Origin: Ramlibacter sp.
GTDB taxonomy: Bacteria > Pseudomonadota > Gammaproteobacteria > Burkholderiales > Burkholderiaceae_C
Length of the DNA: 33,509 nucleotides
Reading direction: 5' to 3'
Assembly (NCBI GenBank): GCA_019449555.1
Contig: JAGRPN010000166.1
Location: 1-33,509 of the forward strand
Made by a program: the position numbers and the translations under genes
Notes under the pieces: generated by a model
Databases searched by the model: none
What the model was told of the DNA's origin: nothing
The model's input: only the letters and a program-made list of their open reading frames with translations
In this document: in pieces, positions 15,043-16,536 of the stretch
Layout: each line of letters begins with the position of its first letter
How positions within the stretch are numbered: position 1 is the stretch's first letter

Positions 15043-16536
15043 ATGAAATCAATGCACAGGGAATTCGGGCTGACGGTGCTGGCCGCCGCACTCGCGGGCG
15101 TGTTTGGAATGGGCTGGACCCCTCACAGCATGGCTGCAGTCGTGTCTGCTTCCGGCATGGGCGACAACAGTGCTGTCATCGTGGTCGACGATCCGGCCAT
15201 CAAAGTTGCTGCCGCCGGCGGCAGCGGCGGAGGAGCCGGGGGCTCCGGGGGTGGCAACTCGGGTGATAACGGCAATTCCGGGCCAGGCAACTCTGGCGGT
15301 AACTCCGGTGGGAACAGCGGAGGCAACGCGGGTGGCAATGGCGGGGGTAACTCCGGTGGTAACGGTGGTGGCGGTAACTCCGGTGGTGGCGGCTCCGGTG
15401 GTGGCGGCTCCGGTGGTGGCGGCTCCGGTGGTGGCGGCTCCGGTGGTGGTAACTCCGGTGGTGGCGGCTCCGGTGGTAGCGGCTCCGGTGGTGGCTCCGG
15501 TGGTAACTCCGGTGGTGGTAACTCCGGTGGTGGCGGCTCCGGTGGTAACTCCGGCGGTGGAGGCTCCGGGGGTGGCGGCTCCGGTGGTGGTAACTCCGGT
15601 GGTGGTAACTCCGGTGGTGGCGGTAACTCCGGTGGCGGTAACTCCGGTGGCGGTGGTTCCGGTGGTGGTTCCGGTGGTGGTTCCGGTGGTGGCTCCGGTG
15701 GTGGCTCCGGCGGTGGTTCCGGCGGTGGCTCCGGTGGTGGCTCCGGTGGTGGTTCCGGTGGTGGCTCCGGTGGTGGTTCCGGTGGTGGTTCCGGTGGTGG
15801 TTCCGGTGGTGGTTCCGGTGGTGGCTCCGGTGGTGGCTCCGGCGGCGGTTCCGGCGGTGGTTCCGGCGGTGGTATTGGCGGCGGCGTCGGGGGAGGTGCC
15901 GGCGGCGCAGTCGACGGCAATCCTTCCGCCGGAGGCGGCCCGGGTGGTGCGCCAGCAGGAAACGCTGGCGGCAATGGCGGTGGCAACGTAGGCACCGGCA
16001 ACAGTGGCAACGGTGTCGGCAACACCGGCCTCGGCAATCAAGGCAACGACTCGCCGGTTGGGAACGCGCACGGTGGACAAACTCCGCCTCCGCCTCCGCC
16101 TCCTCCGCCGCCTCCTCCGCCTCCTCCGCCGCCTCCTCCGCCTCCTCCGCCGCCGCCGCCGCCGCCGCCGCCGCCGCCGCCGCCGCCTCCTCCTCCGCCG
16201 CCGCCTCCTCCGCCACCGCCGCCTGCGCCGCCTGCGCCGCCGCCTAGTGGCGGCACCGGTGCCGATGGCGGTGGGGCTGGCCCCGGCGGACCGACTGGTG
16301 GCGCTGGGCCGGGCACGGTAGTCGTCGTGCCGATTGAGGCACCTCCTGTGGCTGAGGCCGCAGCACCGCAAACCGCCGAGGTACCGACCGCCGCTGGCGC
16401 GGCGGCGCCCGCGGCTGCGGTCGCGGCGCCTACCGCGCCAGCAGTTGCAGCGACACCGAGCACCGCGATCATGGGTGCGCCACCGGTGGTCGCTCCCAAG
16501 CCGCTGCTTCGCAAGCCCAAGGCTGACCGCAACTGA
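15043..16536 (+). CDS. Predicted exported Gly/Ser/Asn-repeat and poly-proline protein
   Basis: The 497-residue product has an N-terminal signal-like segment (basic MKSMHR, hydrophobic LTVLAAALAGVFGMGW, likely cut after HSMAA). A short unique stretch (about 32-56, with SAVIVVDDPAIKV) follows, then Gly-rich repeats from about 59 to 340. Those contain GGGN/GGGS units and an uninterrupted (GGGS)18 at 203-274. Prolines 348-394 are 47 in a row. The tail (395-497) is Ala/Pro/Val-rich and ends in the basic PKPLLRKPKADRN. I recognise no domain and no sorting motif. Low complexity suggests a flexible extracellular or cell-envelope protein; function is unknown. The start follows AAGGA. Gly codon choice shifts to GGT in the repeat core, unlike the GGC-rich neighbours. 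A terminator follows the stop at once. Confidence 0.8.
   Translation: MKSMHREFGLTVLAAALAGVFGMGWTPHSMAAVVSASGMGDNSAVIVVDDPAIKVAAAGGSGGGAGGSGGGNSGDNGNSGPGNSGGNSGGNSGGNAGGNGGGNSGGNGGGGNSGGGGSGGGGSGGGGSGGGGSGGGNSGGGGSGGSGSGGGSGGNSGGGNSGGGGSGGNSGGGGSGGGGSGGGNSGGGNSGGGGNSGGGNSGGGGSGGGSGGGSGGGSGGGSGGGSGGGSGGGSGGGSGGGSGGGSGGGSGGGSGGGSGGGSGGGSGGGSGGGSGGGIGGGVGGGAGGAVDGNPSAGGGPGGAPAGNAGGNGGGNVGTGNSGNGVGNTGLGNQGNDSPVGNAHGGQTPPPPPPPPPPPPPPPPPPPPPPPPPPPPPPPPPPPPPPPPPPPPPPPAPPAPPPSGGTGADGGGAGPGGPTGGAGPGTVVVVPIEAPPVAEAAAPQTAEVPTAAGAAAPAAAVAAPTAPAVAATPSTAIMGAPPVVAPKPLLRKPKADRN
15649..15864 (+). repeat. 18 tandem 12-nt units encoding GGGS
   Basis: The consensus GGTGGTGGTTCC (variants GGCGGTGGCTCC and similar, differing at third codon positions) repeats 18 times without interruption. 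Each unit encodes Gly-Gly-Gly-Ser. Looser GGGS/GGGN units extend upstream to about 15330. Such an array is prone to expansion or contraction by slippage. Confidence 0.95.
16084..16224 (+). repeat. CCG/CCT trinucleotide tract encoding 47 prolines
   Basis: All 47 consecutive codons are CCN: mostly CCG and CCT, with one CCA. The middle is a pure CCG run (16147-16185). The tract is continued by A-PP-A-PPP. It is a microsatellite-like stretch within the exported protein gene. Confidence 0.95.

Follow-up and report, generated by a model that had tools for sequence, protein, structure and literature searches.

PEP-CTERM/exosortase (EpsH) sorting relies on a short C-terminal element that is carried by diverse exported proteins and co-occurs with one enzyme family (PMC1569441, in the part cited here). 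For Braun lipoprotein and OutB, a few C-terminal residues suffice as a signal for L,D-transpeptidases (passages of PMC12274547), and DpaA (YafK) is a YkuD-type amidase that detaches Lpp (excerpts of PMC10653827 and PMC8263019). The gene analysed here lies in a window of 33,509 nucleotides (the whole stretch of DNA under study) from a soil bacterium and encodes what is probably a disordered, Sec-exported envelope protein, of a class that combines a signal peptide, a low-complexity body and the C-terminal sequence [KRQ]-A-D-R-[N/G]. Its C-terminal end (...APKPLLRKPKADRN) carries neither a hydrophobic helix nor a PEP motif and matches no NCBIfam family. Nor does the protein sequence show the features of sortase substrates (LPXTG, a membrane helix and a positive tail), and it has no C-terminal or penultimate lysine of the kind used in Lpp-type anchoring. 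Related bacteria carry the same tail on further exported, floppy proteins, a hint of an envelope tag so far unrecognised. Pfam, NCBIfam and the open-licence PMC literature yielded no description of it; in the latter, all occurrences of the letters KADRN were unrelated among the matches listed.

Anatomy of the window gene

The window gene, its parts and its neighbours are as follows, each with the basis of the call.

13506-14507, minus strand: SbmA/BacA gene, the other neighbour of the window ORF (Pfam)
14981..15007, plus strand: predicted 5' leader hairpin, CCGGCCTCTCGGG...CCCGAGAAGCCGG (folding; weak to moderate)
15032..15037, plus strand: ribosome-binding site AAGGAT, 5 bases before the ATG (direct reading)
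15043..16536, plus strand: gene for the exported low-complexity protein with a KADRN tail, 497 aa, ATG start (sequence, homologues)
15043..15135, plus strand: Sec-type signal peptide, spanning about residues 1-31, with an uncertain cleavage site (own rule)
15208..15912, plus strand: Gly-Ser/Asn repeat body, residues about 56-290, in 12- and 15-base units (repeat analysis)
15943..16047, plus strand: conserved module GGAPAGNAGGNGG.NVGTGNSGNGVGNTG.GNQGN, residues 301-335 (genus genome comparison)
16084..16224, plus strand: run of 47 prolines, residues 348-394, a CCG/CCT triplet expansion (direct reading)
16468..16485, plus strand: MGA motif near the C-terminal end (IMGAPP), within a Gly/Ala/Pro stretch (sequence likeness)
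16519..16533, plus strand: C-terminal tail KADRN, with the stop codon next (direct reading)
16550..16577, no strand assigned: bidirectional terminator palindrome between the window gene and convergent acnB (folding)
16591..19176, minus strand: acnB, the convergent neighbour that marks the syntenic site (Pfam, synteny)

The ORF starts MKSMHREFGLTVLAAALAGVFGMGWTPHSMA | AVVSAS..., runs on into the Gly-Ser/Asn body and ends LLRKPKADRN, with an overall composition of 202 Gly, 76 Pro, 56 Ser, 50 Ala and 31 Asn. A preliminary description, made from the DNA alone, had proposed an exported protein of no known domain, with about 280 residues of glycine repeats and 47 prolines in a row. Export is borne out by the signal peptide (called, here and throughout, by our own rule), whose N-terminal end resembles those of four relatives on sequence comparison (L002, L003, L013 and L016). 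The proline run was confirmed, and the ORF indeed matches no Pfam or NCBIfam family. The repeat estimate stands in part: pure repeat extends from about residue 59 to 290, and residues 301-335 form a conserved module instead. Asn-Gly repeat proteins such as PPE-MPTR have N.G.GN.G-like spacing; the module resembles them in spacing only, and no Pfam repeat family matches it. Closer to the C-terminal end, IMGAPP resembles the [ST]MGA.P element of L025, L041, L045 and L079.

Tandem repeats in the ORF have periods of 12, 15, 24 and 3/21, and its glycine codons (GGT 104 : GGC 77) are used in proportions unlike those of acnB (3 : 67), which argues that the middle of the gene grew by duplication at the DNA level. 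Since the source genome is a 458-contig draft, the number of repeats may be mis-assembled. GC-rich triplet repeats also keep several frames open: other frames of the same DNA run to 499, 338, 304 and 295 codons, so ORF length alone is no evidence for a gene. A chance repeat-driven ORF or an assembly artefact, which these open frames and the draft assembly would allow, is scarcely credible, being contradicted by the conservation of ends, position and module and by the constraint on the N-terminus. When the first 64 residues were searched against 99 genomes, the matches beyond the protein itself came from two species of the same genus, in which the location is the same (E 4.6e-6 and 4.8e-4), and the first 25 codons have an uncorrected pN/pS of 0.15-0.45 (10 pairs from 5 sequences). 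Relatives with the same ends, to which the preliminary description had looked as the test against a chance ORF, do exist. On sequence grounds, 15043-16536 is a gene and not a chance ORF, because relatives at the same position carry a like signal peptide and tail, the N-terminus is under constraint, and both AAGGAT and a shared terminator are in place. The palindrome common to the window gene and acnB folds at -25.6 kcal/mol (z -3.25). A sigma-70/terminator scan of the window gave no hits; the terminator scan probably missed the palindrome because its T run lies within the stem.

Relatives at the acnB site

Within the genus (Ramlibacter as GTDB draws it, with Caenimonas merged), acnB was matched in 56/60 genomes and found no match in 4/60. 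A convergent ORF ending [KR].DR[N/D/G] lies downstream of it in 18 of the 56, where three contigs that stop within 230 bases of acnB are scored as absent; in five more genomes the ORFs at the site all carry different recurrent ends. Among the 18, two ORFs have no signal peptide and are doubtful (G002, G032), and four are truncated by the contig end (G004, G016, G028, G050). The distance from ORF end to acnB is 49-99 bases in fifteen of the 18; in G008, G014 and G023 the ORFs are 0.75-2.2 kb away from it. Complete proteins at the site range from 129 to 529 residues, a range given without L009 (33 residues, wrong start). In the window gene and these relatives the ends look constrained and the middle free, as far as the sequences tell.

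The 47-proline run was seen solely in the window member, the longest proline run being 0-3 in the 21 other records collected. The preliminary description had taken a stiff proline rod joined to a glycine spacer to suggest a surface tether or stalk, or a matrix/adhesion protein; the records do not support the rod as an essential part. A stalk or adhesin would agree with the signal peptide, the spacer-like body and the abundant exopolysaccharide of R. tataouinensis (PMC3164672, in the part cited), yet no adhesion domain is detected by Pfam or NCBIfam and the rod is missing from the other records, which leaves this reading highly unlikely. The cited part of the R. tataouinensis genome paper yielded nothing on the window gene (PMC3164672). 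A tether or spacer role for the window protein is plausible. The suggested link to the SbmA/BacA neighbour fared no better than the rod: in G003 and G036 the homologue is flanked by acnB and an HTH gene, and SbmA is absent from the interval. Import of proline-rich peptides through SbmA was rejected, as SbmA is not the neighbour in these two genomes and the proline run was seen in the window member alone.

The conserved module occurs in 8/59 genus genomes (10 rows), seven at the acnB site and one beside a polA-like gene (named by eye); as it is present in just these eight genomes, the module was rejected as a wider domain. The polA-linked copy in G003 ends MGAGAAPK, and the family seems able to occupy other gaps between convergent genes. 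This copy (L154/L157, G003:C217) is a 558-codon relative with the module, convergent with a DNA polymerase I-like gene (by eye) and not with acnB.

Other ends were also seen at the acnB site. A second type, L[QE]R...LR, is found in L044 (G052), L059 (G023), L053 (G055) and L048 (G026) and is possibly another tail class; the Gly-rich relatives L062 (G043) and L061 (G034) end PPAGPLRAPRAF in place of KADRN. Adjoining acnB in the window, 19229-19837 (minus strand) encodes an exported Lys/Ala-rich protein that ends PVPAVSK, and its apparent relative in G032 (L130, relationship by eye) ends PVKTDRN, so tails may be gained or lost.

The tail across genomes and its YkuD-like neighbours

The informative part of the window protein, overlooked by the preliminary description, is the tail. 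The pattern [KRQ][ASTP]DRN-stop has 54 matches in 37/59 genus genomes, of which 28 (in 22/59 genomes) are strict KADRN-stop, and the permuted KARDN-stop occurs in 0/59. All stop patterns covered TAA and TGA, and tails ending in TAG are therefore missed (two such cases were seen). Fifty-two ORFs were read, namely 51 of the 54 genus matches plus G099 (unread: G024:C5, G005:C18 and one of the G007 pair). A signal peptide was called in 38, while 9 are short ORFs that do not represent genes, 4 run off the locus or contig and 1 has a disrupted frame. For KADRN itself, the start is readable in 24 of 29 ORFs and all 24 have a signal peptide. The pentapeptide is coded in eight ways among the 29, which argues that the tail is kept as amino acids and not as DNA. 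DRN-stop (TAA/TGA) is found at nine places in the window's own genome; two of these are exported genes, the window ORF and L143 (RADRN), and a third tail gene, L165, ends QADRN with a TAG stop. In R. montanisoli (G014), both of the two DRN-stop places are tail genes, and one more tail gene stops with TAG. With its signal peptide, low-complexity domain-free body and C-terminal [KRQ].DR[N/G], the window protein almost certainly belongs to this tail class.

The tail sits on groups unlike one another (grouping by eye). Beside the Gly-rich proteins of the acnB site, these comprise a group with AQG.PP.P....GAGQ.S..TPMG.TG.P, a group near gmhA/yraN-like genes (neighbours named by eye) and a group starting MN.T.K.LTTLAAAAALAGG; L073, L081 and L082 carry the tail on exported proteins that, by eye, are apparently more structured. 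Disorder of the tail proteins was judged from composition, and an NCBIfam scan of three small ones gave sub-cut-off matches only. The DNA pattern MGA...KADRN returned 11 named records, every one from Ramlibacter, Caenimonas or a single Burkholderiales MAG. Strict KADRN-stop has 10 matches in 8/295 genomes of the family beyond the genus (6 exported low-complexity proteins, 1 lipoprotein-like ORF and 3 with no gene), and the order beyond the family has 7 matches in 195 genomes, 0 of them in exported genes (by eye).

At 60 loci around YkuD-like genes, 41 of 41 distinct exported low-complexity proteins end DR[N/G]. These proteins, 29 from the genus and 12 from 12 other genera, were picked blind to their ends, and relaxing the composition rule left the set of 41 unchanged. 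Within the tail, D and R are invariant in 41/41, position -5 is R in 16, K in 13, Q in 11 and I in 1, and position -4 is A in 34. No lysine follows residue 25 in 24/41; this count, together with a last residue that is N or G, disfavours Lpp-type lysine anchoring. Prc/Tsp and other proteases that recognise tails prefer non-polar C-terminal ends, and a polar, charged end could act as a stability cap that spares disordered periplasmic proteins from them. The members are exported and of low complexity and their tail is polar, as a cap would have it, but any polar end would then do, whereas D-R is invariant; we regard the cap as improbable. That the tail is a specific recognition epitope is, by a slight inclination, the better supposition.

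The neighbour of L143 scores 15.6 bits against Pfam PF03734 (YkuD), below the gathering score of 23.4. A structure model of the YkuD-like protein (pLDDT 87) has an L,D-transpeptidase as its best PDB match in Foldseek (E 5.5e-5, probability 1.00), with TM-scores to the query of 0.34-0.42 in the top rows. The modelling indicates a YkuD fold for this neighbour, though the match is modest. His142 and Cys171 (S.GC171) are invariant in 21 rows and S168 nearly so; by alignment, the putative enzyme keeps the His and Cys expected for catalysis. Both L143 and L165 have a DUF4864 gene beside them, in a locus that also contains two YkuD-like genes. At L143:2098-2727 and L143:1004-1438 the tail gene stands between a sub-threshold YkuD-like gene and the DUF4864 gene, and neighbours similar to those of L143 were seen in L074, L075, L093 and L122.

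Linkage between enzyme and tail was assessed within and outside the genus. The enzyme is present in at least 58/59 genus genomes, and a within-genus phyletic test is uninformative because it is nearly universal there. Among 138 family genomes outside the genus, both enzyme and [x]ADRN-stop occur in 24, the enzyme only in 19, the tail only in 10 and neither in 85 (Fisher p 3.9e-8, relatedness uncorrected); with two genus members added, the counts are 26/19/10/85 of 140 family genomes (about one per genus). By the pattern used, 19/43 enzyme-bearing genomes outside the genus thus have no [x]ADRN-stop. Of 49 [x]ADRN-stop matches, 25 are no more than 3.5 kb away from the enzyme gene (ORFs were inspected for 27 + 3 of the matches and 19 were judged by position, some of these being seen otherwise too). 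Close spacing is the stronger evidence, since the co-occurrence is uncorrected for kinship and chance hits grow with genome size.

A single ancestral gene arrangement may lie behind the YkuD-linked cases. Common descent might even account for everything, the tail proteins being fast-diverging paralogues whose tail has a role unrelated to YkuD, and their nearness to the enzyme being inherited gene order. The signal peptides of several groups are alike, two groups share AQG.PP.P....GAGQ.S..TPMG.TG.P or close forms, and tail genes also occur away from YkuD, at acnB and gmhA/yraN-like sites (neighbours by eye). Among the matches listed, at least 19 of 44 genus tail cases lie within 3 kb of a YkuD-like gene, and 25 of 44 are more than 3 kb from one or on a contig without one. 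The 44 are 43 of the 54 genus matches plus L143 (11 short or unread matches left out); 11 of them are acnB-site genes, and one kept row (G049) is a 79-codon ORF without a signal peptide. Four other acnB-site cases are 35-52 kb from a YkuD-like gene. Against descent alone, two unlike tail groups flank the enzyme pair of G041 on opposite sides and both keep the tail, tail-YkuD linkage recurs in 22 other genera, and near-total loss of other sequence with an invariant D-R needs selection on the tail. Descent alone is a possible account, though on balance a somewhat unlikely one.

The regions upstream of tail genes have features of their own. In the window gene, the region -75..-12 folds at -24.3 kcal/mol (z -2.0), and tail-gene leaders have a mean z of -1.21 (n=89) versus -0.17 for 18 other window genes; with 2/5 YkuD-like gene starts likewise below z -2, the hairpin upstream of the window gene is a weak to moderate prediction. 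Ribosome-binding sites of tail genes are strong (AAGGAG in 40/87 upstreams). YkuD-linked tail genes (L174, L166, L091 and L184 are examples) are preceded by a motif, GTCC[TG]AC(A), mostly at -105 to -152 from the start codon, within a narrow distance range and nearly always forward. GTCC[TG]AC occurs in 34/84 tail genes, with related sequences left in, versus about 6 in shuffled or random windows. It looks like a shared promoter or activator site, as a candidate, and was not found upstream of the window gene.

A proposed role and its likeness to known systems

The best explanation, a body that serves as spacer and a tail recognised in the periplasm, is tentative when both parts are taken jointly, and we would put it somewhat short of an even chance from the sequences at hand. 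Sec would export the chain, and a periplasmic receptor would bind its tail; the likeliest candidate is a YkuD-like enzyme or a partner of it, which would hold the protein at the cell wall or process it there. As a spacer, the Gly/Pro body would have a length that drifts by repeat slippage and hardly matters, and the window gene would be a dispersed, repeat-swollen member of the class beside acnB. That the YkuD enzyme itself is the reader of the tail we consider unlikely. Equally doubtful is the fuller proposal, in which [K/R/Q]-A-D-R-[N/G]-COOH is a Gram-negative envelope sorting or processing tag that directs proteins to YkuD-fold enzymes, which attach or trim them at peptidoglycan without a lysine side chain; attachment would then need a lysine-free chemistry, for instance via the mature N-terminus. 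Several findings count against the best explanation: K is replaceable by R or Q at tail position -5, some acnB-site relatives have other ends, and a six-frame search of the window contig found no YkuD-like match.

Should the tail be a sorting or processing tag, it would add one more class to the C-terminal signals of the envelope. Such a class would be linked to the YkuD fold of peptidoglycan enzymes, its lack of a membrane helix would set it apart from PEP-CTERM and LPXTG, and it would offer a handle on small exported proteins that are nameless in Pfam and NCBIfam. The tail occurs in the genus and, within the same bacterial family, in no fewer than 12 further genera among those sampled. The window gene is also a clean case of repeat slippage inflating a protein, with selection holding mainly its two ends.

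Among described systems, the likeness to PEP-CTERM lies in a tail that here too sits on exported proteins of little other homology and is linked by co-occurrence to one enzyme family; a family with transpeptidase-like residues is a feature in common with exosortase (PMC1569441, in the part cited). KADRN proteins differ in having no PEP motif and no C-terminal membrane helix, with the tail at the very end, and the linked enzyme is a YkuD-fold protein, whereas exosortase is an integral membrane protein. Lpp and OutB are attached via a C-terminal lysine, according to the cited passages of PMC12274547, whereas the window protein ends R-N. DpaA shares the YkuD fold and acts on protein-peptidoglycan links, in the excerpts cited above, but the match of the present putative enzymes to it is weak (PDB 8ikr, E 0.055). 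The tail is closest in kind to C-terminal sorting tags, yet lacks their defining features.
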